From Sphingobacteriales bacterium 50-39 (GTDB taxonomy: Bacteria; Bacteroidota; Bacteroidia; Chitinophagales; Chitinophagaceae): DNA of 64,000 nucleotides. The notes below the pieces were generated by a model. The model did no database searches, had not been told where the DNA came from, and saw only the letters and a list, made by a program, of their open reading frames with translations. Position 1 is the stretch's first letter. The number at the start of each line of letters is the position of its first letter. The position numbers and the translations under genes were made by a program. Shown here one piece after another: positions 26,204 to 60,634 of this stretch. The stretch lies in NCBI GenBank assembly GCA_001898505.1, contig MKTZ01000008.1, positions 1 through 64,000 on the forward strand, read 5' to 3'.

Positions 26204-26235
26204 TATAATGGGTTTATCAAAGGTAGCCTCCATAT

Positions 26236-30365: not shown

Positions 30366-30413
30366 GGCGGGCGAGCCCGCTTGGAAATAAGGGTTTCCCG
30401 GTGAAAACTTAAC

Positions 30414-30443
30414 ATTGCGAATGTTACTTTAGTATTAATTTTG
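30414..30443 (+). promoter_or_regulatory. Promoter of the lysine-rich small protein gene
   Basis: ATTG (30414-30417), an 18-bp spacer and TAATTTTG (30436-30443, perfect TAnnTTTG) match a Bacteroidota promoter. The ATG follows 33 bp later. Confidence 0.55.
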
Positions 30444-30476
30444 TGTTACCTAATTATTAACACAAACATTATTCTT

Positions 30477-38655: not shown

Positions 38656-38715
38656 TTGCACAAAATTTGAATAAAATTACACGGCATCGATCCCGCGATG
38701 TTCAGGAATGGATTT

Positions 38716-38877: not shown

Positions 38878-38945
38878 TGTTACGCTCGCTTCACAATTTC
38901 TTAACGTTGGCGTAACCTGCCGGTAACACGCGAAGGGTTCCTTTG
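38878..38945 (+). promoter_or_regulatory. Pho-box-like array and promoter of the TonB receptor gene
   Basis: Five 8-bp units with 3-bp spacers: TGTTACGC (38878), CTTCACAA (38889), CTTAACGT (38900), CGTAACCT (38911) and GGTAACAC (38922). The last unit ends 8 bp before TTCCTTTG (38938-38945), a one-mismatch -7 element, and the ATG is 23 bp further on. Direct repeats at 11-bp period just upstream of the -10/-7 region are how PhoB/PhoP-type regulators bind elsewhere. The match to known Pho boxes is by analogy. Confidence 0.5.
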
Positions 38946-42305: not shown

Positions 42306-42346
42306 TGTGGCAAATTGGTAACAATTTGATAACAATAAATTAATAT
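42306..42346 (+). promoter_or_regulatory. Pho-box-like array upstream of the phosphate-selective porin gene
   Basis: TGTGGCAA (42306), GGTAACAA (42317), GATAACAA (42328) and ATTAATAT (42339) keep 11-bp spacing. A degenerate -7 element TATCTTGC lies at 42362-42369, 15 bp further (against 8 bp in the arrays at 38878 and 52888). The two central units differ at a single position. Confidence 0.45.
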
Positions 42347-42398
42347 TGGCAGTTGTTGGCCTATCTTGCGGGGCCTGGAAAGGGAAACAATCTGCTTT

Positions 42399-44850: not shown

Positions 44851-45815
44851 ATATGGAAACATCAATACCGGCTTCGGTGATCCCATCGCCTGTTGTCAGA
44901 GATGGGGCAGGCTTGCGTAAGCGGGTGCGGCGGACATTTCGCCAAATCCGTGGGGAGGGGGCGTTCCGAAGCCTTTTGCTTATTGCCGGAGGGTTGCTGG
45001 TAGTGCTCGTGCTGGGGATACTGCTCACGCTTATCACGCAGTCTCTTCCTTCCATACGGCTGCTGGGGCTGAAGTTCATTTGGGGCAGCACATGGAATCC
45101 GGTGAGGAATGTGTATGGCGCGTGGCCTTTTTTATTAGGCACGCTTCTTACGTCCTTTCTGGCCCTGTTGATATCCATCCCTTTTTCTGTGGCCATTGCC
45201 ATCTTTTTGGGTGAATATTATCCTAGTAGCTGGTTTGCGGGTGCTTTGAAGAATGCCGTGGAGCTGATAGCCGCGGTCCCTTCCGTTATCTATGGGTTCT
45301 GGGGGCTTGCCGTCCTTGTCCCGATGGTTCGTCAGCTGGAAGCGAGGTTTGGGATGGAACAGCCGCTGGGTGTAGGTATCTTCAGCGCTTCGCTGATACT
45401 TTCCATCATGATCATTCCGTATGCCGCCAGCCTGGGCCGGTCCATGATACAGATGGTGCCCGGGCATTTGAAAGAAGCCGCCTATGGATTGGGTGCTACG
45501 CATTGGGAAGTCATCCGGCATGTGGTGATTCCATATACCCGGAGTGGACTTTTTGCCGGGATATTGCTTTCTCTTGGCCGTGCGCTGGGAGAGACCATGG
45601 CTGTTACCATGGTCATCGGCAATACGAGTATTCTCCCAAAAAGTATCTTTTCACCCGGCAATACCATGGCCAGCGTCATTGCCAACGAATTCACCGAGGC
45701 AGATAAGACAGTATATCTTTCCGCGCTTATCGAACTGGGTCTTGCTCTTTTTCTTGTCACCGTGATCATCAATATCGCGGGAAAAAAGATCATCGATCGT
45801 GTCACCAACGAATGA
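44847..45815 (+). CDS. pstC: Phosphate ABC transporter permease PstC
   Basis: This 322-residue inner-membrane permease has about six helices after an N-terminal cytoplasmic extension of roughly 50 residues. Family segments include FLLGTLLTSFLALLISIPFS, AVPSVIYGFWGLAVLVP and the EAA loop LKEAAYGLGATHWEVIRHVV, which docks to PstB. LSLGRALGETMAVTMVIGN is the PstC signature. It overlaps pstS by 4 bp. Confidence 0.95.
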   Translation: MNMETSIPASVIPSPVVRDGAGLRKRVRRTFRQIRGEGAFRSLLLIAGGLLVVLVLGILLTLITQSLPSIRLLGLKFIWGSTWNPVRNVYGAWPFLLGTLLTSFLALLISIPFSVAIAIFLGEYYPSSWFAGALKNAVELIAAVPSVIYGFWGLAVLVPMVRQLEARFGMEQPLGVGIFSASLILSIMIIPYAASLGRSMIQMVPGHLKEAAYGLGATHWEVIRHVVIPYTRSGLFAGILLSLGRALGETMAVTMVIGNTSILPKSIFSPGNTMASVIANEFTEADKTVYLSALIELGLALFLVTVIINIAGKKIIDRVTNE

Positions 45816-45819
45816 GCTT

Positions 45820-46668
45820 ATGCGTACCGACCATATAAAATACAGGATAGGGAAAAGCAAAGGCTTTAGAATTCTTGTCTTTGTCCTGGCGTTTGCCTGT
45901 ATGATCCCCCTGGCCGCAATTCTTTTCTATATCATCAAGGCGGGTATTGCTCATATCAACTGGGATTTCCTTGTCAATATCCCCCGCCCTGTTGGGGAAA
46001 AGGGAGGTGGTATCGTGAATGCCCTGCTCGGCAGCATTCTTATCATTGCCCTGGCATCTTTGATCGCCATTCCCATCGGGATACTGGCCGGCGTCTATCT
46101 CAGCGAGAACAGCAAGAGCCGGCTGGCTTACTGGTGCAGGCTGTCCGTGGACATATTGCAGGGGATACCTTCCATCGTCATCGGCATCATTGCTTATTTC
46201 TGGCTGGTGAAGCCCCTGGGTGGTTTTTCGGCTCTGTCCGGCAGCGCGGCGCTCGCTATCATGATGTTGCCTATCATTGTCCGCAGCACGGAAGAGACGC
46301 TGAAGATGCTGCCTCCTTCCCTGAAGGAGGCGGCGTTCGCGCTGGGCATGCCCTTTCACCGGGTGATATTCAAAGTGATCATTCCCGTAGGTATCAGCGG
46401 CATCCTTTCCGGCGTCATGTTATCCATTGCCCGGATCACGGGCGAGACGGCGCCCCTGCTGTTCACCGCCTTTGGCAACCCGTATCTGTCGGGGGATGTT
46501 ACCGCGCCCGTGCAGAGCCTTCCTCTTTTGATATTCAATTATGCCACCAGTCCATACAACGACTGGCATGATCTGGCGTGGGGGGCTTCTCTCATATTGC
46601 TGGTATGGGTACTGTTCTTAAATATTTTCACTAAGCTGATATCTGCAAAATGGAAAGTACAATTATAA
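45820..46668 (+). CDS. pstA: Phosphate ABC transporter permease PstA
   Basis: This 282-residue inner-membrane permease partners PstC. Motifs are GGIVNALLGSILIIALASL, the conserved IPIGILAGVYLSE, GIPSIVIGIIAYFWLV, the EAA loop LKEAAFALGMPFHRVIFKVI and SIARITGETAPLLFTAFGN. I start it at the ATG at 45820, five bases after the pstC stop; a GTG at 45799 inside pstC is an alternative. Its 3' end overlaps pstB by 19 bp. Confidence 0.94.
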   Translation: MRTDHIKYRIGKSKGFRILVFVLAFACMIPLAAILFYIIKAGIAHINWDFLVNIPRPVGEKGGGIVNALLGSILIIALASLIAIPIGILAGVYLSENSKSRLAYWCRLSVDILQGIPSIVIGIIAYFWLVKPLGGFSALSGSAALAIMMLPIIVRSTEETLKMLPPSLKEAAFALGMPFHRVIFKVIIPVGISGILSGVMLSIARITGETAPLLFTAFGNPYLSGDVTAPVQSLPLLIFNYATSPYNDWHDLAWGASLILLVWVLFLNIFTKLISAKWKVQL

Positions 46669-47408
46669 AAAGCAGGAATTTTAATGCATCTTTTGGCAGC
46701 AATCACGTAGTGAAAAATGTCAATATCGATATTCCCAGGAACCATGTGGTGGCCGTAATGGGACCATCCGGCTGCGGCAAGACCACTTATCTGCGTTGTA
46801 TCAATCGAATGCATGAATTGATCCCCGGGGCTACCTGCCGGGGGATGATGACCATCAATGAGGAGGATATATACACTATGCATCCCATCTTTGTCCGGCT
46901 GAAGATCGGGATGGTGTTCCAGCGACCCAATCCTTTTCCGAACCTGAGCATTTATGACAATGTCATCGCCGGCTACAAGCTCAATGGGATTAAGCTGGCC
47001 AGGGCGGAAAAGGACAGGATCGTAGAGCATTCTCTGACCAGGGTGGCCCTGTGGAATGAAGTAAAGGATTCGCTCATGAAGAAGGGGGCCTTTCTCTCCG
47101 GCGGGCAGCAACAGCGTCTTTGTATCGCCAGGGCCGTCGCCATGGAGCCCGAAGTGCTGCTCTTCGATGAACCTACTTCTGCCCTCGATCCTATCTCCAC
47201 CTCCACCGTAGAAGATCTTTTTCATGAATTGAAGGCCAACTATACACTCATCATCGTGACCCATAATATGCAGCAGGCTGCGAGGGTCAGTGATAAAACC
47301 GCCTTCTTTTATATGGGGGAACTGGTGGAGTACGAGCTGACAAAGGATATTTTTACCAATCCCAGGGACAGCCGTACGCAGAATTATATTACGGGGAGGT
47401 TTAGTTAA
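46650..47408 (+). CDS. pstB: Phosphate ABC transporter ATP-binding protein PstB
   Basis: This 252-residue ATPase energises the PstSCA importer. Motifs are Walker A GPSGCGKTT, the Q-loop MVFQRPNPFPNLSIYDNVI, the signature LSGGQQQRLCIARA, Walker B VLLFDEPTSALDP and the switch VTHNM. C-terminal residues EYELTKDIFTNPRDSRTQNY are typical of PstB. Confidence 0.97.
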   Translation: MESTIIKSRNFNASFGSNHVVKNVNIDIPRNHVVAVMGPSGCGKTTYLRCINRMHELIPGATCRGMMTINEEDIYTMHPIFVRLKIGMVFQRPNPFPNLSIYDNVIAGYKLNGIKLARAEKDRIVEHSLTRVALWNEVKDSLMKKGAFLSGGQQQRLCIARAVAMEPEVLLFDEPTSALDPISTSTVEDLFHELKANYTLIIVTHNMQQAARVSDKTAFFYMGELVEYELTKDIFTNPRDSRTQNYITGRFS

Positions 47409-47417
47409 ATTAATATT

Positions 47418-48083
47418 ATGGCACAGTTAGAGACAGAGTTGCAGTTGTTAAAAACGGAGGCCGTCAATATGTGGACGCTGGTGAATATCCAGCTGAGCAA
47501 GGCTCGTCTGGCTTTCCTGAACTTCGACAAGGACCTGGCGCGCGAGGTCGTATTGAAGGAAAAAAGAGTCAATGCGAGTGAGCTGAAGATCGACCGGGAC
47601 TGTGAGAATATTTTCGCCCTGTTCTGTCCCGTGGCCATCGATCTCCGATTCGTGCTGGCCGTGTTAAAGATCAATTCATCTTTGGAAAGGATAGGAGATA
47701 TAGCCGAAGCCATTGCACGCTATGTCATCGACGCGGAGGCGCCTTTTGCGCCTGTGTTGCTGGATTCCACCCGTATACTGCCCATGTATAAAGAGGCCAT
47801 CCGGATGCTGGAAGATACGCAGGCCGCCTTTGAGAATGAGGATACCGTCCTGGCGCGCAGCGTATTCAAACGGGATGATCTGCTGGATGAGGTCAATAAG
47901 CATGTCAATAAGATATTGGAGCACCATCTGAAGGCGCATCCGGAGGACACCGCACAGGCCCTATGGATATTATCAATCATACGCAGGCTGGAAAGGGTGG
48001 GCGATCAGTCGAAGAATATTGCGGAAGAGATTATTTTCTACCTGGAGGCAAAGGTCCTCAAACATAAGAATAAGCATAACTGA
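47418..48083 (+). CDS. phoU: Phosphate signalling/transport regulator PhoU
   Basis: The 221-residue protein has two three-helix bundles. Each carries the PhoU metal-binding type motif, for example FVLAVLKINSSLERIGDIAEAIA in the first and WILSIIRRLERVGDQSKNIAEEI in the second. PhoU represses Pho signalling and Pst activity when phosphate is sufficient. It starts 9 bp after pstB as the last gene of the pst operon; an intrinsic terminator follows. Confidence 0.94.
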   Translation: MAQLETELQLLKTEAVNMWTLVNIQLSKARLAFLNFDKDLAREVVLKEKRVNASELKIDRDCENIFALFCPVAIDLRFVLAVLKINSSLERIGDIAEAIARYVIDAEAPFAPVLLDSTRILPMYKEAIRMLEDTQAAFENEDTVLARSVFKRDDLLDEVNKHVNKILEHHLKAHPEDTAQALWILSIIRRLERVGDQSKNIAEEIIFYLEAKVLKHKNKHN

Positions 48084-48213
48084 ACATAATATAAGCATAA
48101 CTATTAAGTAAAATACTCATAATGTCCGGCGCTTACTTTTATATCCGAATTAATTGGTTAGTCACCCGTTAATCGATGGTTTATATATGTAGAGTTGAAT
48201 TTTCTCATGCAGA

Positions 48214-48248
48214 AGCCACCTCATTTCCATGAGATGGCTTTATTTTTT
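48214..48248 (+). terminator. Intrinsic terminator of pstSCAB-phoU
   Basis: AGCCACCTCAT and ATGAGATGGCT pair at all but one position around TTCC, followed by a T-rich tail. It sits 130 bp after phoU, before the convergent glycosyltransferase gene. The gap 48084-48213 is A/T-rich without a recognisable gene. Confidence 0.8.
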
Positions 48249-48281: not shown

Positions 48282-49319
48282 TTAGAATATGCAAAGCTCC
48301 GGATACAGCTGATCCAGCTGATGTTTTGATCTGTCCGTGCAGTGGTGCATGAGATAGCTGACGATGGACCCCGTAGAATAATCCAGCCGGAGAGCGTGTC
48401 TTTTCTTTTGCTGCATCATCCGCTCAAATACGGTGGTAAACTCTCCATCCAATCCTTTCAGGACAGGAACGCCCATCTTTTCCAGGGCTGCGGCATTGCA
48501 GAACTGCTCATATTGTCCACGGATGGGAATAGCCAGCAATTTCTTCCCGAGGTACATGGCTTCGGCCGGTGTTTCAAAACCTGCGCCTGTGATGATGGCC
48601 TTGCAGGTGATGAGGCTTTTATTAAAGGCGTTTTTGCTCACCGGGATGAAGAGGATGTTGCCTTGTTGTACCGGCTGTTTTACTTCTTTGGAGAACACCT
48701 GGAAAGAATAGTCTTTGAGGGGGCTCAGGTACTGACTTACCTTGGCATCGCTAAAGGAAGAGAGGTATACCGTAACATGCCCTTTATCCACCGGCTCCGC
48801 CTGGAGGATCTCCTTTTTGATCACCGGAGGGAGGATAAAATCGTCGTATTGTTTAAAATGGAGGCCTATATATTGTGTTGCTCTGGCGTAGTTGCGCAGG
48901 ATCCATTCTCCCATCAGCTCTTTGTGACGGGGGCGGGGAACTTTGGGAGAGATAAAGCTTGCCTGGTGTCCGAAATTGACCGAAGGCACTTTTTTATAGG
49001 CGCAGGCCAGGGAGGTGATGCATTCGAAGTCGTTTATGACCAGGTCATATTTCTCCACCGGCAGGTCTTTTACTTCTCTCAGCAGGCGCAGGGGAGCGAA
49101 CTCGCGGGCGATCTTCGAATAGTTAAGGCTGCCGCCGCTGGTATAAAAAAGGCTCAGACCCTTGCTGCGATATTTTACGGAAGCATCCAGGTCCAGGCTA
49201 TTGTTGGCGCCGCTGAGAAAGATATCTACATGGCCATACCGTTCCAGGTAAGGAAGTATCTCCATTGCCCTGCTGATATGGCCGTTGCCTGTTGCCTGTA
49301 CTGCGTAAAATATTTTCAT
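48282..49319 (-). CDS. Glycosyltransferase, candidate glycolipid synthase (Agt-like role)
   Basis: This 345-residue GT-B fold glycosyltransferase of the MurG/GT28-like group begins MKIFYAVQATGNGHISRAM with the G-N-G-H donor/acceptor loop. Its C-terminal half contains ITGAGFETPAEAMYLGKKLL and IPIRGQYEQFCNAAALEKMG, the nucleotide-sugar binding signature. It overlaps the metallophosphoesterase gene by 4 bp and is translated after it. In phosphate-starved bacteria a PlcP lipase makes diacylglycerol and an adjacent glycosyltransferase (Agt) converts it to glycolipid; the pairing here next to pst fits that model. The lipid acceptor is inferred. Confidence 0.7.
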   Translation of the reverse strand: MKIFYAVQATGNGHISRAMEILPYLERYGHVDIFLSGANNSLDLDASVKYRSKGLSLFYTSGGSLNYSKIAREFAPLRLLREVKDLPVEKYDLVINDFECITSLACAYKKVPSVNFGHQASFISPKVPRPRHKELMGEWILRNYARATQYIGLHFKQYDDFILPPVIKKEILQAEPVDKGHVTVYLSSFSDAKVSQYLSPLKDYSFQVFSKEVKQPVQQGNILFIPVSKNAFNKSLITCKAIITGAGFETPAEAMYLGKKLLAIPIRGQYEQFCNAAALEKMGVPVLKGLDGEFTTVFERMMQQKKRHALRLDYSTGSIVSYLMHHCTDRSKHQLDQLYPELCIF

Positions 49320-50155
49320 ATTGCTGCTAAAGAATTGATGTAAAAATTGATCTCATCCGTAATGACGTTCAGGGAAGGTTTCATCTCGATGGTGGGTGTT
49401 ACGGGGAATTTCTTTTCGTCGTACTCGAAGATCGTCCACTCGTTCTGGTGATATTCCAGAGCCGTAAGATGCTCCACCCAGTCCCCTGAGTTCAGGTAGG
49501 TGACTTTTCCTTCCTTGTTCTCCACTACCTTTTTGGAAGGCTGGTGGATATGTCCGCAAATGACGTAGTCATATTTTTTCTTGATGGCCAGCTCTGCTGC
49601 GATGAGCTCGAAATCATTGATCTTGCTTACCGCCTTGTTGACACCCGCCATGACTTTTTTGGAGATGGATACCCGCTCGCGGCCAAATGATTTTAATATG
49701 AAATTTATGAGGCGATTGAAGAGGATCAGCCCTTCGTAGCCGCTGCTGCCCAGTTTGGCGAGGATCTTGGCACCACCTTTGGTGGTATTGTCGAAAACAT
49801 CTCCGTGGAAGATCCAGGTCATTTTGTTATCAATCTCCAGCACCAGCTTGTCGGTGAGCGTGAAATTGCCGATCTGGATGTCGGTGTAGCGGCGCATCAT
49901 CTCGTCATGATTGCCGGTGATATAGAATACCCGGGTGCCATTGGTAATGAATTGAAGGATCTCTTTCAATACCATCATGTGGGCTACAGGAAAATATCTT
50001 TTGGTGAATTGCCAGCCGTCAATGATATCACCGTTGAGGATGAGGATGTTAGGAGTGATGCTCTTGAGATAGTTGACCAGTTCCTTGGCACGGCAGCCGT
50101 AAGTTCCGAGATGAACATCTGAGAGAACAACAACATCTACGGGTCGCTTTTCCAT
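49316..50155 (-). CDS. Metallophosphoesterase, UDP-2,3-diacylglucosamine hydrolase/PlcP-like
   Basis: This 279-residue calcineurin-like phosphoesterase has D13-x-H15 in LSDVHLGTYG, then NGDIIDGW, GNHDE, the His of FHGDVFD and the C-terminal GHIHQP, giving a complete dinuclear metal site. Automated annotation would call it UDP-2,3-diacylglucosamine diphosphatase (LpxH-like). It is longer than LpxH (about 240) and coupled to a glycosyltransferase between pst-phoU and an alkaline phosphatase. Proteins of this class (PlcP) remove phosphate headgroups from membrane phospholipids under phosphate limitation. I favour PlcP on context; sequence alone cannot settle it. Confidence 0.75.
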   Translation of the reverse strand: MEKRPVDVVVLSDVHLGTYGCRAKELVNYLKSITPNILILNGDIIDGWQFTKRYFPVAHMMVLKEILQFITNGTRVFYITGNHDEMMRRYTDIQIGNFTLTDKLVLEIDNKMTWIFHGDVFDNTTKGGAKILAKLGSSGYEGLILFNRLINFILKSFGRERVSISKKVMAGVNKAVSKINDFELIAAELAIKKKYDYVICGHIHQPSKKVVENKEGKVTYLNSGDWVEHLTALEYHQNEWTIFEYDEKKFPVTPTIEMKPSLNVITDEINFYINSLAAI

Positions 50156-50282
50156 TATTGTGGTTTTTCAAAGGTCCATACTTTGTATTACTTCTCTGGT
50201 ATTTCCCAGTTAAGTAATTATGAGTTTAATGTGAACGGAATATTAACAGCCGGGCGTAAGAATTTTGCTTTATTATTGTTGG

Positions 50283-51077
50283 ATGAAAATTGGATATCTC
50301 ACTGTCCTGCTGGGATTGGTCGTTCTTAGCTTGCAGGCGCAGCCCGGCACCTATACTGTCAGCAATGCCCACTCTCACAACGATTATGAGCAGAAAGTGC
50401 CTTTCTGGCTCGCTTATAACGAAGGTTTTGGTTCCATCGAAGCCGATATTTTCCTACGGCAGGACAGCCTGGTGGTAGCTCATTCTGAGAAGGAGCTGGC
50501 TCTTCACCGTACGCTGGAGGCATGGTATCTCGACCCCTTGCTGGGTTGTGTTCGTAAGAATGGCGGGCGGCCATACCTCAACGGAGGTGGGCCGTTGCAG
50601 GTACTCATCGATCTGAAGACGGATTCCATCCATACATTGGACAGGCTGATAAAGGTCCTGGAGAAATATCCCGAGCTGACGGGGTGCCCGGGTATCCGGT
50701 TTGTCATCACCGGCAATCGACCCGCGTCTTCGCTGTGGTCTTCGTATCCTTCCTGGATATGGTTTGACGGGGTATTGTCCGATGAGTACGACAAGGCGGC
50801 TATGGACAGGGTTGCTATGCTCAGCGATGATTTCAAATCCTTTTCAAAGTGGAATGGCAAGGGCAATATTCCCGCCCCTGAGCTGGCCCGACTGGAGGCC
50901 GCCGCCAGGAAAGCTCATCAATTGAAGAAGTCCGTACGGTTCTGGGATGCCCCCCGACATTATCAATGCCTGGTATCAGTTCATGCATCTGCAAGTAGAT
51001 TTTATAAATACCGATCATATTGCAGCCCTTTCGGAGTTCCTGCATCATCTGCCGAAGACGTCCTATACCGGGGGTGA
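50283..51077 (+). CDS. PI-PLC-like/GDPD domain, N-terminal part of a frameshifted phosphatase gene
   Basis: The frame encodes a signal peptide (MKIGYLTVLLGLVVLSLQAQ) and a TIM-barrel of the glycerophosphodiester/phosphatidylinositol phosphodiesterase type. It contains SNAHSHNDYEQKVPFWLAYN and GSIEADIFLRQDSLVVAHSE, with His/Glu/Asp residues as in GDPD active sites. Up to RFWDAP (about residue 224) it reads normally. It then passes a run of six C (50950-50955) and continues as non-conserved sequence to a stop at 51077. Removing one C restores DAPDIINAWYQFM and joins it to the alkaline phosphatase below. The original gene was surely one 50283-52080 fusion protein. Confidence 0.75.
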   Translation: MKIGYLTVLLGLVVLSLQAQPGTYTVSNAHSHNDYEQKVPFWLAYNEGFGSIEADIFLRQDSLVVAHSEKELALHRTLEAWYLDPLLGCVRKNGGRPYLNGGGPLQVLIDLKTDSIHTLDRLIKVLEKYPELTGCPGIRFVITGNRPASSLWSSYPSWIWFDGVLSDEYDKAAMDRVAMLSDDFKSFSKWNGKGNIPAPELARLEAAARKAHQLKKSVRFWDAPRHYQCLVSVHASASRFYKYRSYCSPFGVPASSAEDVLYRG

Positions 51078-52080
51078 CGCATACCAGCCTTATCGGCCTA
51101 CCTATAAGACCGATGGTATCGACAGGCCTGTGAAGAATGTGATCCTGCTCATTGGTGACGGGACGGGTTTAGCCCAGCTATACACCGGCTATACCGCCAA
51201 CAGGGGCGGCCTGAATATTTTCGGGATGCGTACTATCGGGTTGTCGAAGACCAGCAGCTTTGACAGCTATGTCACCGACTCCGCCCCCGGTTCTACCGCA
51301 TTTTCATCTGGTGAAAAGACCAACAACCGCAGTGTGGGTGTCGATCATACAGGAAAGGCTTTGCCTTTGCTGCCGGTGATCCTGGACAAGAAAAGGATCA
51401 GGACCGGGCTGGTCACCTGCGGCGATATTGCCGATGCCACGCCGGCTGATTTTTATGCCCACCGGTCCGAGCGGGATAATGCCAGCGCCATTTTGCGGGA
51501 CCTTAAGGGCGCTCCAATACAGGTGCTGATGGGGAGCGGGGGTGACAGCCTGGATAATCTGCCGGAGTATACCGTTGTGACTTCTGTAGACAGCGTCGGC
51601 ATGGATATAAATAAGAAATGGATCGTAGTGGAAAAGCAGGCCGGAAGGTCCATGCTGAATGGAAGAGGGGACTGGCTGCAGCGTGCTTTTCACAAGACCC
51701 TCGATCTTTTGTCCCGTAATAAGCCGGGTTTCTTTATTATGACCGAAGGCGCCCAGGTAGACTATGGTGGTCATGCCAATGATCTTCCCTATGTCGTTAC
51801 GGAGGTGCTGGATTTCGACAGAACGGTGGGAGAGGCCCTGCGTTTTGCCGACCAGGATGGAGAGACCCTTGTCATTGTTACAGCCGACCATGAGACAGGC
51901 GGTCTTACGTTATTGGATGGCAGCTATTCAAAGGGACATATTGCCGGACAATTCTCTACGAATGATCATACTGCCATTCCTGTACCAGTGTTTGCCTATG
52001 GACCCCGTTCGGGGCTTTTTAGAGGAGTGTATGAAAATACGGCGGTCTTCTCAAGGATCTTGCAGGCTTACGGCCTGTGA
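50947..52080 (+). CDS. Alkaline phosphatase domain, C-terminal part of a frameshifted gene
   Basis: From about residue 60 this frame encodes a complete PhoA-type alkaline phosphatase domain. NVILLIGDGTGLAQLYTGY is the first metal site, and DSAPGSTAFSSGEKTNN contains the Ser nucleophile in the D-S-A context. QVDYGGHANDL and TADHETGGLTLL are further metal ligands, with a distal His in FSTNDHTAIPVPV. The first 60 residues (VDFINTDHIAALSEFL) belong to the PLC-like domain. Translated alone it would lack a signal peptide and stay in the cytoplasm, so the enzyme is probably functional only if the C-run frameshift is corrected or is a sequencing error. Confidence 0.8.
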   Translation: MPPDIINAWYQFMHLQVDFINTDHIAALSEFLHHLPKTSYTGGDAYQPYRPTYKTDGIDRPVKNVILLIGDGTGLAQLYTGYTANRGGLNIFGMRTIGLSKTSSFDSYVTDSAPGSTAFSSGEKTNNRSVGVDHTGKALPLLPVILDKKRIRTGLVTCGDIADATPADFYAHRSERDNASAILRDLKGAPIQVLMGSGGDSLDNLPEYTVVTSVDSVGMDINKKWIVVEKQAGRSMLNGRGDWLQRAFHKTLDLLSRNKPGFFIMTEGAQVDYGGHANDLPYVVTEVLDFDRTVGEALRFADQDGETLVIVTADHETGGLTLLDGSYSKGHIAGQFSTNDHTAIPVPVFAYGPRSGLFRGVYENTAVFSRILQAYGL

Positions 52081-52180: not shown

Positions 52181-52750
52181 ATGAATGAAGAACTCATTTT
52201 ACTTCTCGGTGACAAGATCAAGACGAAGAGGACACAGAAGAATATTACATTAGAGCAGCTGGCCGGCAAGGCTGGCGTCAGCAAGGGGCTTATCTCCCAG
52301 ATAGAGAATAATCGTACTGTTCCTTCCCTGCCGGTGCTATTCAATATTATACATTCTCTCGACGAGGACCTGAAGACCTTTTTCGAGGATATGCATGACT
52401 CAGCTTCCAATGGGCATGTTCTTATTATCCGGAAGGGTCAGGAAAAACTTTTTGAAAAGGAAAAGGTGAAAGGGTTTATCTACAAGCGGATACTTACACG
52501 GAGCCTTTCCTGCCAGGCTACTGATGTTGTACTACTGGAATTGAAAAAAGGGGCTGTTCGCAAGCAGATGATCACGACGGATGCCTGGGAGTGCAAGTAT
52601 GTATTGAAAGGAAAGATCGAATACCAGATAGAAAAACAGGTCTTCATACTGGATGAGGGAGATACGCTCTTCTTCGACGGGCGTTCCAGACACAGGCTCA
52701 AGAACATCGGAACTGCCGAGGCGATCATCCTTATAACGTATCTTTTCTAA
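52181..52750 (+). CDS. XRE-family transcriptional regulator with C-terminal cupin
   Basis: This 189-residue cytoplasmic protein has an N-terminal helix-turn-helix (residues 8-65: DKIKTKRTQKNITLEQLAGK, then SKGLISQIENNRTVPSLPVL) and a C-terminal cupin_2 beta-barrel (about 110-185: KYVLKGKIEYQIEKQVFILD, then EGDTLFFDGRSRHRLKN). Such XRE-cupin regulators usually control a neighbouring catabolic or transport operon and sense a small ligand. It is on the same strand, 245 bp ahead of susC, and I infer that it regulates the phosphonate SusCD locus or itself. Confidence 0.88.
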   Translation: MNEELILLLGDKIKTKRTQKNITLEQLAGKAGVSKGLISQIENNRTVPSLPVLFNIIHSLDEDLKTFFEDMHDSASNGHVLIIRKGQEKLFEKEKVKGFIYKRILTRSLSCQATDVVLLELKKGAVRKQMITTDAWECKYVLKGKIEYQIEKQVFILDEGDTLFFDGRSRHRLKNIGTAEAIILITYLF

Positions 52751-52887: not shown

Positions 52888-52944
52888 CTTAACATTTTCT
52901 TAAATTGGGTGTAACGTTCGCTTTACATTGTGCAAATACTTTCG
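52888..52944 (+). promoter_or_regulatory. Pho-box-like array and promoter of the SusCD-phosphonate operon
   Basis: CTTAACAT (52888), CTTAAATT (52899), TGTAACGT (52910) and CTTTACAT (52921) form four 8-bp units with 3-bp spacers. The last ends 8 bp before TACTTTCG (52937-52944), a one-mismatch -7 element, exactly as in the TonB receptor promoter. TTAAC (52861) and TTAGT (52872) upstream continue the 11-bp rhythm with a phase break. The ATG of susC lies 51 bp beyond the -7 element. Control by a PhoB-type regulator is inferred from architecture. Confidence 0.55.
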
Positions 52945-52995: not shown

Positions 52996-55900
52996 ATGAG
53001 AAAGAGTTTCCCCCTTCTTATAGGGCTATGGCTAGTCCTATTTTTTTCCCCGCTCCTTACTCATGCACAACGGGTCATCACCGGCCGCATCGTCTCTGAA
53101 GCAGACGGGAGCCCTGTTGCCGGCGCGTCCATTGTTATCAAGGGTTCCCGTGCGGGCACTTCCACCGATGTGGAAGGCCGCTTTTCTATCAAGGCCAACA
53201 ACGGGGATGTGCTGGTGATCACGGGTATAGGGGTCACTACAAAGGAGTCGACTGTGGGTAGTGAGAGCACGCTCGTCGTTTCAGTCAAGACAGACAGCAA
53301 GAACCTTAGCGAAGTGGTAGTGACTGCGTTGGGTATTAAAAAGGAGGTCAAGCGCATAGGTTACTCCGTTCAGGAGGTCAAGGGTGATGACTTGCTCAAG
53401 GCTCGCGAGCCAAATCCCGTCAATGGCCTCACCGGGAAGGTGGCCGGTCTGAACGTAGGTATCAGCCAGGAAATGCTGGCCTCTCCTACGGTGCTGCTGC
53501 GTGGCTCACCGCTGAACTTTTATGTAGTAGATGGTATTCCTATCAACTCCGACACCTGGAATATCAGCCCCGATGATATCGAGACTTATACGGTGCTGAA
53601 AGGCCCCACCGCTGCCGCGCTTTATGGCAGCCGTGGTATCAACGGAGCCATTCTTATTACGACCAAGAGAGGAAAAAAGAACGGCAAGGGCTGGTCGGTG
53701 GAAGTCAACTCCAGCACGCAGATCAATAAAGGGTTTACGTCCATCCCCAAGGTGCAGAACCAATATGGCGGTGGTGATAACCAGCAATATGCTTTTGGCG
53801 ACTACCTCGCCAATGGTACAGGGTCCGGACTCAACGACAAGGACTATGACGTGTGGGGTCCTCTTTTGGATGGCCGTCTGCTGCCGCAGTATGATGGCGT
53901 ATACGATCCCAACACAACCTATACGACCAGCTTTGGCCCCAACCTTAAACCTTTTGTGGGCAATATCAAGCCAACGCCCTGGGTGGCCCGCGGCAAGGAC
54001 AACCTGCAGAATTTTGTCCAGACAGGTTTGCTGACGACCAACAATATCAATTTCTCCTCGATCACCGACAAATCCACCATACGTATGTCGGTATCCAATG
54101 GCTACCAGAAGGGCATTGTCCCCAACACCAGCCTCAATACGCTGAACATGAACGTGCTGGGCAGCTATAATGTCAGCGACAAGTTCAAGGTGGAAGCCAA
54201 TATCAACTACAACCGCCAGTTCACGCCCAATACTCCGGACGTGGCTTACGGACCTAACAGCATCATTTATAACATCGATATCTGGACAGGCGCCGATTGG
54301 AATGTACGGGATCCCAATATTATCAACTACTGGAAGCCGGGCAAGGCGGGTGTTCAATCCAATTTTGTAGAGTACAAGAGATACCATAACCCATGGTTCC
54401 AAAGCTATGAATGGCTGAGAGGGCATTATAAGAACGACCTGTATGGATGGGCGGCCTTCACTTATAAGTTCAACAAGGATCTGGATCTGATGCTGCGGAG
54501 CAATGTGACGACATACAACCTGCTGCGTACGGAAAAGGAACCTTTTTCCGCCCACCCTTATGGGGATGAGCACAACCATGGTAATTACAGGGAGGACAGG
54601 CGTGACCTTTGGGAGAACAATACCGAGCTGCTGCTTCGCTTCAATAAGGAGAATATCAACAACAGCGGCATTTCTGTCAGCGCTTTTGGCGGCGGTTCTG
54701 CCCGTAATATGAAATTCGAGTCCAGCTATACGAGCACGGATCAGCTGGTGGTTCCCAATGTATATACGTTCGCCAACAGTTTGAAGGCGTTGAGGTCTTA
54801 TTCCTACGGCTCCAACCTGCTGTTGTTGAGCGGGTACTACTCTGTGGACCTCACCTATAAGAAGTACTTTACGATATCTACGACAGGTCGCGTAGACAAG
54901 ACCAGCGCGCTGCCGGTGGGTAAGAATACTTATTTCTATCCTTCTGTGGCAGTGAGCACACCCCTCTCCGACTATGTCACGCTACCTTCTTTTATCACCT
55001 TCGTTAAGCTGCGTGGAAGCTATGCCAATGTAAAGGATGGCGGCACCACCCCTTATGCGGGTACAGCTTTCCAAAGTTTGGGAATTTCCAGTCCGGTGGG
55101 TTATGGTACGGGCTACTATACTCCGTATGATGGACCTACCTATGCGCTGTCTACTCCGCCGTATACGACCTATCCGGTGTATAACAATATCACCGGGGCC
55201 AGCGCTCCGAACTATACGATCAATCCTGGTATCAAGCCCAGCTCCCGCAGCAACTACGAGTTTGGTCTGGATGCCCGGTTTATCCACAACAGACTGGGCT
55301 TTAGCGGTACATGGTTCCAGTATAAGGACGGTCCGAAGATATCCTACCAGTATCCATCGGAGGCCAGCGGTATCGGCTATATTGTCACCAACGGTCTTAC
55401 TACCAAACGTACGGGTGTAGAGCTTTCTTTGACGGGTACGCCTATTCAGCAGAAGGATTTCCGCTGGGATGTACTGGTCAACTGGTCGACCTATAAGGAA
55501 GTGTTCGCGGCCTTTGCCGGCGGCGTGCCCGAGCTTGGTAACGGTACTGGCTATCCCTATCATATAGGTGACCGTGTAGACAAGCTCTTCGGAAGCTATG
55601 AGGCGATGACCCCGGATGGAAAGGTGATCCACGACGAGTCGGGTTTCCCCATCTATCTACCTAAAGCACAGTACCTGGGGCATGCCGATCCGGACTGGGC
55701 ATGGGGTATCAACAACAAGTTCTCCTATAAATCATTCAGTTTTTCCTTCCAGTTCGACGGTATGGTTGGCGGAAAGCTGCAAGACCGCGTGTTGCGTAAG
55801 CTGACCGAAGGTGGTCGTGGGCTGAATACCGCCACCGGCGTGATTGGCCAGGCTCGTCTGTATGAATCCCAGCATCTGGCAGATCCCGGTTATTTCGGAG

Positions 55901-56391
55901 CTGATCCCAATAACCCGACACATAATGCCGAGGCAAGACGTGCCGACGGACGTCCGATCCTGGGTGGTGACGGGGTACAGGTAAAGGGTGGATCCGGCAA
56001 CCTGGCGTATGACCCTGCCACGGGCGTCATCAGCAATGCGAAGAGCCTTACGTTCGTGCCAAACGATTCGTCCACCATTTGGGTCCAGGACTATGTCAGC
56101 AGCTTTTACAACGACCCGCAGCATACCATGGTCAGCAAGACATATGCGAAGCTGAGAGAGGTGGTGATCACCTATTCGCTGCCTTCGAAGTTCCTGCAGA
56201 AGTCATTTATCCAACGGGTAGATGTGAGCATTGTGGGAAGGAACCTGCTTTATTTCTTCCCCAGCGCCTTCAAGGACATGGACGTCGATCAATATCCCGG
56301 TCGTGACCAGTTCAACAATATAACGCGTGAATATAACCTGCAGTCACCCACGACCCGCAGCTATGGTATCAATATAAATGTAGTCTTCTAA
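52996..56391 (+). CDS. SusC/RagA-family TonB-linked outer-membrane transporter
   Basis: This 1131-residue TonB-dependent barrel has a signal peptide (FPLLIGLWLVLFFSPLLTHAQ) and a CarboxypepD_reg-like N-domain (VITGRIVSEADGSPVAGASI). The segment SEVVVTALGIKKEVKRIGYS leads into the plug. The SusC signature is FYVVDGIPIN... followed by DDIETYTVLKGPTAAALYGS and GINGAILITTKRG. The barrel ends YGININVVF. It is followed 11 bp later by its SusD partner, making a two-component importer. Because phosphonate-cleaving genes follow directly, I infer a phosphonate or phosphonate-bearing glycan/lipid as cargo rather than a plain polysaccharide; no glycoside hydrolase is nearby. Confidence 0.95.
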   Translation: MRKSFPLLIGLWLVLFFSPLLTHAQRVITGRIVSEADGSPVAGASIVIKGSRAGTSTDVEGRFSIKANNGDVLVITGIGVTTKESTVGSESTLVVSVKTDSKNLSEVVVTALGIKKEVKRIGYSVQEVKGDDLLKAREPNPVNGLTGKVAGLNVGISQEMLASPTVLLRGSPLNFYVVDGIPINSDTWNISPDDIETYTVLKGPTAAALYGSRGINGAILITTKRGKKNGKGWSVEVNSSTQINKGFTSIPKVQNQYGGGDNQQYAFGDYLANGTGSGLNDKDYDVWGPLLDGRLLPQYDGVYDPNTTYTTSFGPNLKPFVGNIKPTPWVARGKDNLQNFVQTGLLTTNNINFSSITDKSTIRMSVSNGYQKGIVPNTSLNTLNMNVLGSYNVSDKFKVEANINYNRQFTPNTPDVAYGPNSIIYNIDIWTGADWNVRDPNIINYWKPGKAGVQSNFVEYKRYHNPWFQSYEWLRGHYKNDLYGWAAFTYKFNKDLDLMLRSNVTTYNLLRTEKEPFSAHPYGDEHNHGNYREDRRDLWENNTELLLRFNKENINNSGISVSAFGGGSARNMKFESSYTSTDQLVVPNVYTFANSLKALRSYSYGSNLLLLSGYYSVDLTYKKYFTISTTGRVDKTSALPVGKNTYFYPSVAVSTPLSDYVTLPSFITFVKLRGSYANVKDGGTTPYAGTAFQSLGISSPVGYGTGYYTPYDGPTYALSTPPYTTYPVYNNITGASAPNYTINPGIKPSSRSNYEFGLDARFIHNRLGFSGTWFQYKDGPKISYQYPSEASGIGYIVTNGLTTKRTGVELSLTGTPIQQKDFRWDVLVNWSTYKEVFAAFAGGVPELGNGTGYPYHIGDRVDKLFGSYEAMTPDGKVIHDESGFPIYLPKAQYLGHADPDWAWGINNKFSYKSFSFSFQFDGMVGGKLQDRVLRKLTEGGRGLNTATGVIGQARLYESQHLADPGYFGADPNNPTHNAEARRADGRPILGGDGVQVKGGSGNLAYDPATGVISNAKSLTFVPNDSSTIWVQDYVSSFYNDPQHTMVSKTYAKLREVVITYSLPSKFLQKSFIQRVDVSIVGRNLLYFFPSAFKDMDVDQYPGRDQFNNITREYNLQSPTTRSYGININVVF

Positions 56392-56402
56392 AACCAGTCA
56401 CC

Positions 56403-57992
56403 ATGCAACGCAATATCATACGATCCCTATTCATTCTGGCCATTCCGGCGCTGCTGGCAGTCACCGGATGTTCCAAGAAGTTCGAACAATATTCGCAGAA
56501 CCAGAATCTGCCTACCGTCGTGCCTCCGGGTCTTGTGCTCCGCAGCAACCTCAACGGTCTGGTAGTTACCCCCGGCGGGTTTGAGGACAAGGCCGACCAG
56601 TTCATTGCCTCCAACTATAACTATTATGGAGATAACAAATACTGGACTGGCAGTGCAACGCTCAATTACGGTACGCTTAACAGCGTGCTCTCCATGGAGA
56701 AAGAAGCAAAAAGGGCTGCCGGCACCGACCGCAATCCCTACCGCGCCCTGGGTTTTTTCTTCCGCGCTTTTTTCTTTGTCAACATGTCCGAGAAGGTGGG
56801 CGATCTGCCGATGACCGATGCGTTGAAAGGAACTACCAATACCGCTCCGAAATACGATGCGCAAAAGGATATCTTTAAGCAATCGCTGAACTGGCTGGAC
56901 AGTGCCAATACATTGCTGGCTGATCTTATCACCAATGGATTTGTGGAATTCTCCGGCGACTGGTATTACCAGGAGACCAGCCTTTATTCCGACGCCACCG
57001 GTCTCAAGGCGTTGATGGAATGGCAGAAAGTTGTCAACAGCTATAAGCTGCGTGTGCTGACGGAATTGAGCAAGCGGGCCGCTGACGCCAGCGATCTCCA
57101 GATACCTCAGCAGTTCGCCGCCATTGTAGGCAACCCTACCAAGTACCCCATTTTTACCAGCAATGACGACAACCTGCAATATGTCTATAACAGTACCTAT
57201 AACTACTATCCGGATAATCCGGGTAATTATGGGAATAATGCCGGTAGACTGAACCTGGGTTCCACCTTGCTGACTACTTTGGGTCAGCTGCATGATCTTC
57301 GTGCGATGGTATTAGCCGAACCGGCCCGCGGACTGGGGCATCCCGATACCGCTTATGAGTCCTTTGCAGGAGCGCCGCTGGGGGATGACGTGAGCACGCT
57401 CTCTACCTTGTCGAATGCCGGTCAGATATGTCTGTACAATTACAACCATTTCTATGCAACTTATACCGCCGAGCCCACGCTCATTCTCAGCTATGCGGAG
57501 GTATGTTTTAGCATTGCGGAAGGCATCAACCGCGGATGGGCTACCGGCAGCGCCTCTACCTGGTATCAGAATGGCATCAAGGCCATGTTTGGCTTCTATG
57601 GGATCAAGGATGGAGATAACACCGTGATATTCCGCAATACCGGTGGTACGGGCAATCTTAGCTATACCGTGCATTTTAGTTTTGCCGATTATCTGGCGCA
57701 GGCGTCTGTTCAATACAAAGGTGACAACGCCGACGGGCTGGCGCAGATACTAACGCAGAAATACCTGGCCTATTCCCGTAATTCCGGATTGCAGGCATAT
57801 TATCAATGGCGCAGAACGGGTATTCCTGCCTTCAATACGGGCGCGGGCACCGGCAATGGCGGTAAGATACCCTTGCGGTTCCAGTATCCCACCAACGAGG
57901 CTACCGCCAATGGTACAAATTACCAGGCAGCGCTTCAGAGCCAGTATGGCGGAGCTGACGATATCAACGCTCAGATGTGGCTGATCAAATAA
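56403..57992 (+). CDS. SusD/RagB-family nutrient-binding lipoprotein
   Basis: This 529-residue outer-membrane lipoprotein is the lid of the SusCD importer. It has a lipobox (PALLAVTGC, Cys about 23), TPR-like helical repeats (RALGFFFRAFFFVNMSEKVG) and the SusD_like C-terminal region. That region carries LILSYAEVCFSIAEGINRGW, ILTQKYLAYSRNSGLQAYYQ, WRRTGIP and FQYPTNEATANG. It belongs to the SusD_like_2 type and shares the AE..xxG and QK(W/Y)L motifs with the pseudogene at 29883-30365. Confidence 0.93.
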   Translation: MQRNIIRSLFILAIPALLAVTGCSKKFEQYSQNQNLPTVVPPGLVLRSNLNGLVVTPGGFEDKADQFIASNYNYYGDNKYWTGSATLNYGTLNSVLSMEKEAKRAAGTDRNPYRALGFFFRAFFFVNMSEKVGDLPMTDALKGTTNTAPKYDAQKDIFKQSLNWLDSANTLLADLITNGFVEFSGDWYYQETSLYSDATGLKALMEWQKVVNSYKLRVLTELSKRAADASDLQIPQQFAAIVGNPTKYPIFTSNDDNLQYVYNSTYNYYPDNPGNYGNNAGRLNLGSTLLTTLGQLHDLRAMVLAEPARGLGHPDTAYESFAGAPLGDDVSTLSTLSNAGQICLYNYNHFYATYTAEPTLILSYAEVCFSIAEGINRGWATGSASTWYQNGIKAMFGFYGIKDGDNTVIFRNTGGTGNLSYTVHFSFADYLAQASVQYKGDNADGLAQILTQKYLAYSRNSGLQAYYQWRRTGIPAFNTGAGTGNGGKIPLRFQYPTNEATANGTNYQAALQSQYGGADDINAQMWLIK

Positions 57993-58018: not shown

Positions 58019-58600
58019 ATGGACAACCAACAGGCGGAAGGCATTGTAGCGGAGATATTTGAGATGTATGAGAGTTATGGGGGTGAAGAATATGCAGGTG
58101 AGAAGGTCACGCAATTGGAGCATATGGTGCAGGCCGCTGAGCTGGCGGAAGAGCAGGGGTATGATGAAGACGTGATATTGGCGGCTTTTTTACATGATAT
58201 AGGCCATATTACGGAGTCTGCGACGCCTGAAGACGGCAGGATGGGCGGGTTCGGTATCAAGGATCATGAGGCCATTGGGGCGGAGTATCTACGGGAAAAG
58301 GGTTTTTCGAAAAAGGTATGCCGACTGGTGGAGTCGCATGTGGAGGCAAAGAGATATCTGACCGTGCGGGACCCTGCCTATTATGCACGGCTCTCTGACG
58401 CCAGCAAACGTACCCTTGAATACCAGGGTGGTCCTATGACGGAAGATGAGGCCAGCGCCTTTGAACAATATCCCCTTTTTGAGCTCATCATAAAAATGCG
58501 GACCTGGGATGAAGAGGCGAAGATCGAGCATAAGCCGCTGCCCGACCTGGAACACTATCGACAAATGATGCTTCGGCACCTGACCCGTGGGGGAGAATAA
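58019..58600 (+). CDS. phnZ: PhnZ-type HD-domain mixed-valent di-iron oxygenase
   Basis: The 193-residue HD-domain protein is of the phosphonate-degradation group. PhnZ oxidatively cleaves the C-P bond of 2-amino-1-hydroxyethylphosphonate to glycine and phosphate using a di-iron site. All residues I recall as essential in PhnZ align here with a small offset: Y25 and E28 (in EEYAGE), H35 (QLEHMVQ), H59-D60 (AAFLHDIGH), H83 (IKDHEAIG), H107 (VESHVEA) and D164 (RTWDEEA). It starts 26 bp after susD and precedes the PhnX-like gene by 17 bp. The usual partner hydroxylase PhnY is not visible in the window. Confidence 0.88.
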   Translation: MDNQQAEGIVAEIFEMYESYGGEEYAGEKVTQLEHMVQAAELAEEQGYDEDVILAAFLHDIGHITESATPEDGRMGGFGIKDHEAIGAEYLREKGFSKKVCRLVESHVEAKRYLTVRDPAYYARLSDASKRTLEYQGGPMTEDEASAFEQYPLFELIIKMRTWDEEAKIEHKPLPDLEHYRQMMLRHLTRGGE

Positions 58601-58617: not shown

Positions 58618-59319
58618 ATGAACAATATTCAACTGGTAGTTTTTGACATCGCTGGTACAACGGTTTATGACAATGGGCAGGTGGCCGATGCTTTTATCAC
58701 CGCCTGCCGGGCTGCGGACATAGAGATACCTGCGAATGAGGTAAAAAAAGTGATGGGTTTCCGGAAGATAGATGCGATCCGTCTGCTCCTGGACAAATTT
58801 TCTCCTGCCGTACCGGTGGGTACACAACGGGAATCGCTTATTTCGGGGATACACGATCGCTTCATCCAGAATATGATCTCTTTCTATCAGCAGGACCCAG
58901 AGCTCCGTCCCATGCCTCATGCGGAAGAGCTTTTTTCTTCCTTGCATAGGAAAGGGATCAAAGTGGCACTGAACACGGGTTTTACCCGGGCCATCACCGA
59001 TGCCATCCTGCATCGTCTTCACTGGGACAATGGAGCCGGGTATGTGGACAGCGTGATCTGTAGTGACGAGGTCCCAGAGGGCCGTCCCTCGCCGGATATG
59101 ATCAACCGCCTGATCCAGCGGCTGGATATAGCGTCTGCCAATAATGTATTGAAGGTCGGAGATACCGAGGTGGATGTGGAAGAAGGGCGCAATGCAGGCT
59201 GCGCCATCGTGGTAAGTGTGACCACCGGCGCCTATACCCGTCAGCAGCTGCAGGAATATCGTCCTGATCATATTATAGACAGCCTGGAAGAGCTAATCCC
59301 CATCATTGAAAAAGCCTGA
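58618..59319 (+). CDS. Phosphonatase-like HAD hydrolase (PhnX-related)
   Basis: This 233-residue HAD-superfamily protein has the phosphonatase-type motif I FDIAGTTV (D-x-A-G-T-T instead of DxDxT). Motif II is LNTGFTR, an Arg lies in VPEGRPSPDM where normal HADs have Lys, and VGDTEVDVEEGRNAG is the acidic C-terminal motif. A cap-domain Lys50 (VMGFRKIDAI) lines up with the Schiff-base Lys of PhnX (MGLLKID). It could therefore cleave phosphonoacetaldehyde to acetaldehyde and phosphate, fed by the FAD enzyme downstream. Its stop overlaps the next gene's start (TGATG). Confidence 0.85.
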   Translation: MNNIQLVVFDIAGTTVYDNGQVADAFITACRAADIEIPANEVKKVMGFRKIDAIRLLLDKFSPAVPVGTQRESLISGIHDRFIQNMISFYQQDPELRPMPHAEELFSSLHRKGIKVALNTGFTRAITDAILHRLHWDNGAGYVDSVICSDEVPEGRPSPDMINRLIQRLDIASANNVLKVGDTEVDVEEGRNAGCAIVVSVTTGAYTRQQLQEYRPDHIIDSLEELIPIIEKA

Positions 59320-60632
59320 TGATCTCTCCCACTCCCATGTTAACCGAGCAGCCGGCGAGCCGGCCCACGACGCTAAGGACAAGGCTGTCGAATAGTCCGG
59401 CATGGGTATTTGTGTTGTATGTGTCTCTGGCTTCTTTTATTGTTTATTCCTGTATGTATGGTTTTCGAAAACCTTTTACGGCGGCGTCTTTTGACGGGGT
59501 GAAATTTTTTGGCATTTCCTATAAGGTGGTGCTTGTCATCTCACAGGTGCTGGGTTATATGTGCAGCAAGTTCTATGGCATCCGCTTTATTGCCACCATG
59601 CAGCCATCCCGCCGGGCGGGTTATATCATACGGCTGGTAGGCATATCATGGGTCGCGCTGCTGCTCTTTGGTATTGTGCCCATGCCGTATAATTTCATTT
59701 TTATGTTTATCAATGGCCTTCCCCTGGGAATGGTCTGGGGGTTGGTATTCGGGTTCCTGGAGGGCAGGCGTGTCACCGAGCTGATGGGGGCCGTCCTGGC
59801 GACCAGCTTTATGTTTGGATCCGGTCTGGCCAAGACAGTAGGGAAAGGATTGATCCTGTATGCGGGGGTAAATGAGCATTGGATGCCGTTCTTTGCCGGG
59901 GCTTTTTTTATCATCCCTCTTTTGTTGAGCACCTGGCTGCTGAATCAAACGCCACCGCCGTCTGCGGAGGATGTGGCTCAGCGTACGATCCGACTGCCGA
60001 TGGCAAAAGAGCAGCGGAAGGATTTTCTACGGAAGTTTGGCTTCGCCCTTATCCCTGTCGTCATTGCGTATGTGATGCTTACCATCCTCCGTGATTTCTG
60101 CGAGGACTTTGCCAACGAATTATGGACGGAAACAGGGTTTCTGCATAGCGCCGATGTATTTGCCCGCACCGGCACCATCCTATCCCTCATCGTGCTGGCC
60201 GTAGTCGGCGGTTTTTTCCTGATCAGGAATAACTATAAGGCCTTTCAGCTGAATAATGTGATCATCATCGGCGGTTTCATCCTGGCTGCCGCCGCTACTG
60301 CCGGCTATCATTGGCATATGATCTCTCCCGTGACCTGGATCATCACCGCCTCGGCCGGACTTTATCTGGGTTATGTGCCGTATAATTGTTTTTATTTCGA
60401 GCGGATGCTGGCTGCTTATAAGGTGCCCGGCAATGTAGGCTTTCTCATCTATATTGCGGATGCCTTCGGGTACCTGGGGACGGTAGTTGTCCTGCTGATA
60501 AAGGAGTTTGTAAAGATCCATTATACCTGGGTTGATTTTTTTACAGGCATATTTTATGCCGCTGCGGCCGGTGGGATCGTGTTGGTGATGTGGGGGTCCG
60601 TGCTGTTTGCTAGAATATACAAAAAGAATTGA
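59319..60632 (+). CDS. DUF5690/MFS-type inner-membrane transporter of the phosphonate operon
   Basis: This 437-residue polytopic protein has about 12 predicted helices and fits the DUF5690 group of the major facilitator superfamily. FIVYSCMYGFRKPFTAASF and YKVVLVISQVLGYMCSKFYG at the start resemble organophosphate:phosphate antiporters (GlpT/UhpC) and related MFS proteins. FINGLPLGMVWGLVFGFLEG is a mid-protein hallmark. Translational coupling to the HAD and FAD genes suggests it carries the phosphonate, or a product, across the inner membrane. Substrate unproven. Confidence 0.82.
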   Translation: MISPTPMLTEQPASRPTTLRTRLSNSPAWVFVLYVSLASFIVYSCMYGFRKPFTAASFDGVKFFGISYKVVLVISQVLGYMCSKFYGIRFIATMQPSRRAGYIIRLVGISWVALLLFGIVPMPYNFIFMFINGLPLGMVWGLVFGFLEGRRVTELMGAVLATSFMFGSGLAKTVGKGLILYAGVNEHWMPFFAGAFFIIPLLLSTWLLNQTPPPSAEDVAQRTIRLPMAKEQRKDFLRKFGFALIPVVIAYVMLTILRDFCEDFANELWTETGFLHSADVFARTGTILSLIVLAVVGGFFLIRNNYKAFQLNNVIIIGGFILAAAATAGYHWHMISPVTWIITASAGLYLGYVPYNCFYFERMLAAYKVPGNVGFLIYIADAFGYLGTVVVLLIKEFVKIHYTWVDFFTGIFYAAAAGGIVLVMWGSVLFARIYKKN

Positions 60633-60634
60633 TT

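Follow-up and report, generated by a model that had tools for sequence, protein, structure and literature searches.

The stretch of DNA analysed here (64,000 nucleotides, hereafter the window; G000:C8:1-64000 of a genome of 7.9 Mb in 27 contigs) carries an array of four direct repeats in front of a gene for a SusC-type receptor. Judged by its sequence, this array is very probably a Pho box, an activator operator that PhoB would bind and that would place a susCD-phn operon under phosphate-starvation control. The sequence-only reading had proposed such a Bacteroidota Pho box, and the proposal is supported by the matrix score, the gene context and the conservation in relatives. The principle is a known one; our sequence analysis supports an undescribed version of it in this phylum, with the four units tied to the -7 element of the promoter. 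We infer that PhoB binds the array, that low phosphate induces the operon, and, from the neighbouring genes, that the cargo of the SusCD pair is phosphonate.

The four 8-bp units follow one another on the forward strand with an exact 11-bp period and 3-bp spacers, in the order CTTAACAT (52888), ttt, CTTAAATT (52899), ggg, TGTAACGT (52910), tcg and CTTTACAT (52921). Eight base pairs (tgtgcaaa) lie between the last unit and the -7-like element TACTTTCG, which is in turn separated by 52 nt from the susC ATG (52996). This layout over 52888-52944 is as first described from the letters. The second unit, CTTAAATT, deviates from the consensus; this counts against the Pho-box reading. When the two strands of the window were scanned with the plain consensus, the sites at 52888 and 38889 took the top two ranks.

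For scoring we used weight matrices derived solely from the pst promoters of 17 relatives, with nothing taken from the genome under study. The unit and the -7 element had a matrix each, and the spacing between them was kept constant. Over 58 nt the 17 promoters can be aligned gap-free, their consensus being GTTAACAT TAA GGTAAYAT Tnn SGTAACAT TGG GGTCATnn, 8 bp, TTCTTTTGC. The matrix was run on the window, on 400 kb of control stretches and on seven chosen stretches of the genome. The susC site obtains 20.8 bits from the array and 7.3 bits from the -7 element (total and other sites in Table 1). No total of 10 bits or more was found at any of 797,720 control positions (400 kb, same genome), and exact matrix statistics predict 3e-6 sites of the 52888 grade per window at 51% GC and 2e-4 at 33% GC.

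Pattern searches of the genome gave a more limited picture. The pattern KTAAC-N6-KTAAC-N6-KTAAC, with zero mismatches, occurs only once in the 7.9 Mb, in the 38889 array. With two mismatches, the own-genome pattern shows no excess (64 matches versus 111, and 38 versus 51, in the reversed control), so that only the top of its ranking is informative. A loosened composite pattern has three zero-mismatch matches in the genome, all inside the window; since it was loosened with the window boxes known, this three out of three is not an independent result. A profile-HMM of the pst promoters, which placed 52888 only ninth in the window, was dropped as noisy because its local matches reward single AT-rich units, and the per-unit weight matrix with fixed spacing took its place.

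Pfam and NCBIfam profile searches reveal a phosphorus island in the window (Table 1). The SusCD pair adjoins enzymes of organic phosphorus (PhnHD, the PhnX-like hydrolase and the FAD oxidoreductase), the arrangement by which a PUS locus is recognised. The DUF5690 protein of the same operon is possibly an inner-membrane transporter. At 50265-52080 (+) a GDPD-like ORF and an alkaline-phosphatase ORF overlap in different frames, and homologues of these pieces in two relatives (L033, L036) lie in one frame; this is apparently a frameshift in a fusion gene, or else an assembly error. In F. johnsoniae, phosphate depletion induces a pf00245/pf13653 protein (PMC8115612).

Table 1. Genes, predicted boxes and promoter elements of the phosphorus island (window coordinates; last row, contig coordinates)
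Feature	Position	Strand	Evidence or remark
Secreted phosphodiesterase/phosphatase	25058-26203	-	PF01676
Pho box and -7 element TACCTTTG of phosphodiesterase/phosphatase	26218-26274	-	24.2 bits (site 26274); zero-mismatch composite match
PhoU_div (DUF47) gene	38008-38661	-	Pfam/NCBIfam
Pho box of pst-cluster outer-membrane gene (units 38889, 38900, 38911, 38922)	38889-38929	+	39.1 bits
-7 element TTCCTTTG, 8 bp past last unit	38938-38945	+	Sequence; relatives' pst alignment
TonB-type outer-membrane protein, head of pst cluster	38969-42238	+	PF25183, PF13620
Three-unit array before porin gene, apparently decayed	42317-42346	+	No -7 element in register
Pst-linked porin-like protein	42366-43691	+	No Pfam match; canonical box at relatives' homologues (tblastn, L034-L061)
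pstSCAB-phoU	43792-48083	+	PF12849, PF00528 (twice), PF00005, PF01895
Pho box right after phoU (units 48085, 48096, 48107, 48118)	48085-48125	+	25.1 bits; equivalents in 8 relatives
-7 element TACTTTTA of post-phoU box	48134-48141	+	Sequence
Candidate Pho-controlled small RNA, conserved UUUUCUCAUGCAG then terminator hairpin	48143-48247	+	Conserved in relatives
Glycosyltransferase paired with PlcP (lipid remodelling)	48282-49319	-	PF13528
PlcP-like metallophosphoesterase	49316-50155	-	PF00149
Pho box (up to six units) and -7 element GACCTTTG of plcP	50169-50247	-	23.3 bits from array alone (site 50247); kept in 8 relatives
Alkaline phosphatase	50947		Pfam/NCBIfam
HTH-cupin regulator, PuuR-like	52181-52750		Directly upstream of susC
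Pho box of susC, four units	52888-52928	+	Sequence; 28.1 bits with relatives' pst matrix; kept in 8 relatives
-7 element TACTTTCG of susC promoter	52937-52944	+	Sequence; relatives' TAATTTCG/TAGTTTCG/TAACTTTG at equal distance
SusC/RagA TonB-dependent receptor, first gene of boxed operon	52996-56391	+	TIGR04056, 422 bits (cut-off 368)
SusD-like lipoprotein	56403-57992	+	PF12771, E = 9e-51
Phosphonate-degradation HD-domain oxygenase (PhnZ/TmpB type; PhnHD)	58019-58600	+	TIGR03276, 222 bits (cut-off 214.6)
PhnX-like HAD hydrolase	58618-59319	+	TIGR03351, E = 3e-57, 194 bits (under cut-off 218.9)
DUF5690 protein	59319-60632	+	PF18943, E = 2e-151
FAD oxidoreductase	60629-61768	+	TIGR03364, 428 bits (cut-off 285)
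PhoB-like regulator	G000:C8:66991-67671	-	3 kb past window; HisKA (PhoR-like) kinase beside it

The geometry of four units, 8 bp and a -7 element is found again at the pst outer-membrane gene, plcP-agt, the phosphodiesterase gene and the stretch following phoU. Enrichment at phosphorus genes had been named beforehand as the test that could overturn the Pho-box proposal, and its outcome favours the proposal; boxes stand at pst, plcP, the phosphodiesterase and susCD-phn, and likewise in the relatives. Three arrays (38878, 42306 and 52888) had been put forward from the letters, and that at 52888 stands unchanged. The one quoted at 38878, where the unit (TGTTACGC) is weak, is best read as the array of 38889/38900/38911/38922, ending 8 bp before TTCCTTTG. 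The one at 42306 fails: it retains three TAAC-like units (42317, 42328, 42339), but the nearest -7 element, TATCTTGC, is 15 bp away where 8 would be needed. It looks like a decayed copy, since the -7 element is out of register and, in the relatives, the functional-looking box occupies this very place in front of the porin gene.

Several further arrays were seen. In the divergent intergenic region 26218-26400, the phosphodiesterase gene (-) has a good box and a PAP2 phosphatase gene on the other side (+) a weak one (26301). Between 29850 and 30855, TTAAC-like arrays cluster on the two strands around the gene of a small lysine-rich protein (30478-30752); the array at 30461 (-) reaches 35 bits, yet lacks a -7 element in register. 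The arrays at 29850 and 30404-30461 have high array scores but were left uncounted, their -7 elements being out of register and no phosphorus gene being present. Outside the island, a strong box with its -7 element in register (23.7 bits; G000:C3:57819-57876, +; L283:7819) precedes the gene of a 140-aa secreted protein with no assigned function.

The comparison with relatives was made on their 20-kb pst loci, scanned with the relatives' pst matrix. The nearest relative among the named genomes is a Chitinophagaceae bacterium MAG (L033), with a PstS 84% identical. Every locus having a susC homologue after plcP (eight of eight) has a box before it. Boxes also precede plcP in eight relatives' loci and follow phoU, in forward sense in eight loci and in reverse sense in L033. 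The strongest and most constant sites of the relatives are the pst and plcP promoters. Among the eight relatives with a boxed susC, five (L033, L034, L036, L038, L042) encode a PhnHD homologue (70-82% identical) after susCD, on one contig and at the expected distance; that of the L035 genome lies on another contig (contig break). The genomes of the remaining two, L039 and L061, have no PhnHD homologue, and boxed SusCD need therefore not always serve phosphonates.

We also carried out a search blind to genes in 119 family genomes, with three strict units, a free gap of 2-30 nt and TANNTTYG. It yielded five matches, in each of which the gap after KTAAC is 10 or 21 nt. The corresponding search with two units and a free gap peaks at 10 (12 matches) and 21 (17 matches) after removal of a different conserved class. 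These two peaks of the distance to the -7 element lie one unit apart (10 versus 21 nt). The strict composite pattern detects about 130 sites in 104 of 296 family genomes, versus about 11 in the reversed control; about a tenth of the family matches are attributable to chance. The start codon usually lies 14-30 nt past the -7 element. These family boxes precede TonB receptors, PlcP, Pst porins and PstS: the 98 proteins after them include 42 with CarboxypepD_reg (TonB receptors), 19 PlcP-type metallophosphoesterases and 10 with OMP_b-brl_4. The phylum scan (296 genomes) gave 20 matches versus 1 in the control, and of the 16 proteins following these boxes, 10 are plug-domain receptors, 2 PstS-like and 2 Porin_O_P. 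The features expected of a Pho box, namely tandem 11-nt repeats, a fixed 8 bp to the promoter element, enrichment at phosphate genes and a PhoB-type regulator in the genome, are all present.

Promoters of the form TTAACCTTTYRTTAACC-N10-TACATTTG are conserved in dozens of genera and probably belong to another regulator. Because its gap is 11 instead of 10 and its word differs, this class was rejected as Pho and treated as another regulon. Here it occurs at G000:C11:378972-379006 (-), before the gene of an outer-membrane beta-barrel-like protein.

The stretch after phoU looks, from its sequence, like a small-RNA gene. It spans about 100 nt, with a conserved core TTTTCTCATGCAG, an intrinsic terminator and no convincing ORF, and it combines what is expected of a small RNA: its own predicted promoter, an intrinsic terminator and conserved non-coding sequence. 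It has no entry in Rfam. Of 197 family genomes, 7 contain it at E <1e-9 according to a covariance model, which gives weaker matches in others; it is kept in at least a dozen family genomes. The many weak matches of the model (below about 40 bits) lack the core, are probably ordinary terminators and were discarded. In G010, G182 and G111 the RNA starts one nt past a Pho-box match of the independent composite scan, and boxes lie at a nearly fixed distance (mostly -9) before at least ten RNA matches. With respect to phoU, L033 has the box and the RNA turned round as one block, which indicates a unit of its own. A target test with the seed complement GCATGAGAAAA returned 13 sites versus 6 in the control, 3 of them at the starts of exported proteins, too weak a result for a claim.

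The genome encodes 20 OmpR-type regulators (Trans_reg_C). The one 3 kb past the window is the best of the 20 against a pst-linked Paraburkholderia PhoB (41% identity, 165 bits; the next has 137), and E. coli PhoB ranks first in the PDB for its DNA-binding domain. Among the 20 it alone has RTIDVHIRKIR (RTxDVHIR), the recognition helix of E. coli PhoB being RTVDVHIRRLR. Between this phoB and a divergent 779-aa ORF with no Pfam match there is a three-unit box, GTTTACAA/GTTAATAC/AATAACAT, 8 bp, TAGCCTTG (L278:5735-5785, +; G000:C8 at about 67.7 kb).

Upon starvation, this regulator in its phosphorylated form would bind the four 11-bp repeats head to tail. With 8 bp between its last unit and the Bacteroidota -7 element, the array occupies the -33 region; there PhoB would bring in RNA polymerase, in the way that the E. 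coli protein does at -35. It would thereby switch on the operon from susC and susD through PhnHD, the PhnX-like hydrolase and DUF5690 to the FAD oxidoreductase, that is, outer-membrane uptake with phosphonate breakdown. The pst and plcP-agt genes, the phosphodiesterase and the small RNA would be co-activated.

Another regulator of the OmpR/PhoB family, concerned with the cell envelope or with oxidative stress and similar in its TTAAC specificity, might bind the array instead, the phosphate genes being only part of its targets. Twenty regulators of this type are encoded in the genome, Riemerella PhoP binds TTTAACA (PMC9603813), and many of the genes downstream of boxes encode TonB receptors with unassigned cargo. 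Next to other OmpR-type regulators, too, there are comparable 11-bp arrays built on different cores (YCTAATCC-like; CTTAACCCC; L280:6112, -; L281:6135, +), which suggests, as far as sequence goes, that each such regulator has its own repeat word. We nevertheless regard this explanation as unlikely, given that the relatives' strongest and most constant sites are the pst and plcP promoters, and that the regulator closest to known PhoB sits in the neighbourhood of the island.

Still less probable is that susC is mainly governed by the PuuR-like HTH-cupin protein, acting as a substrate sensor, with the array incidental or secondary. Its gene is the direct upstream neighbour and is kept beside susC in L033, L036 and L039, but L034, L035, L038, L042 and L061 have retained the box too, and in their loci no homologue of the HTH-cupin gene turned up. 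To our knowledge, 11-bp direct-repeat arrays are not the usual operator of the HTH-cupin family, which also counts against this explanation. Dual control of susC by PhoB and the HTH-cupin protein is possible. A chance repeat, for which the AT-rich region and the roughly three arrays without -7 element expected per genome at 33% GC might speak, deserves almost no credence in view of the -7 element in register, the control scan and the conservation in eight relatives, which refutes it.

With PhoB control of the susC array as the preferred reading, a code of phylum-wide extent appears probable from the sequences compared. Four KTAACAT units, 8 bp upstream of the -7 element, would control SusCD/TonB/porin import, PlcP-Agt and phosphonate breakdown, and a conserved, so far undescribed small RNA (core UUUUCUCAUG and terminator, beside phoU here and in the closest relatives) would act as a post-transcriptional arm. 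Organic phosphorus in soil, water and gut is recycled to a large extent by Bacteroidota; what is known of their phosphate response comes from proteomics and a small number of phoB mutants. Since the box stands at constant promoter spacing at phosphorus genes of many relatives, the phosphorus control code of the phylum now becomes readable. With an operator of such strict geometry, the Pho regulon of thousands of genomes becomes predictable from their sequences, orphan TonB/SusCD transporters can be placed in phosphorus acquisition, and a Pho-controlled small RNA emerges as a candidate that experiments can test.

We found no operator sequence of a Bacteroidota Pho box in the open literature. 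In B. fragilis, induction of pstC at low phosphate needs PhoB of the PhoRB system, in the report of which a Pho box is mentioned without its sequence (PMC3547664). Phosphate depletion of F. johnsoniae induces SusCD homologues (PusCD), TonB receptors, PlcP and a fusion of alkaline phosphatase with phosphodiesterase; the authors also noted PusCD loci that contain phosphonate enzymes (PMC8115612). SusCD, TonB receptors and PlcP are among the gene types here as well; the main text of that report names no DNA site, whereas here a site is tied to a phosphonate SusCD operon. The DAP-seq motif TTTAACA of Riemerella anatipestifer PhoP has a similar core word in the same phylum. The motif was likened to ArcA, and the authors linked the regulator to virulence and oxidative stress (PMC9603813); a four-unit array tied to a -7 element does not appear in the text consulted.

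The 11-bp PhoB repeats and the 8-bp units with 3-bp linkers of cyanobacterial Pho boxes, both cited in the sequence-only reading, match the published descriptions (PMC1906773, PMC4415409). The E. coli Pho box is a tandem of 8-bp repeats, separated by 3-bp linkers and placed 10 bp upstream of the -10 element (PMC1906773, PMC4415409). It shares with the susC array the 11-nt direct repeats upstream of the promoter's downstream element, and a PhoB homologue is present here too. It differs in having two units as the norm instead of four, the core CTGTCAT instead of KTAACAT, a sigma-70 -10 box instead of the Bacteroidota -7 element (TWnnTTYG), and other target genes. The cyanobacterial SphR box, with at least three tandem 8-bp CTTAACCT units and 3-bp linkers (PMC1906773), has nearly the same word as CTTAACAT. 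Unlike it, the Bacteroidota box belongs to another phylum and another promoter type, keeps a fixed 8 bp between the last unit and the -7 element, and has SusCD and PlcP among its predicted targets.
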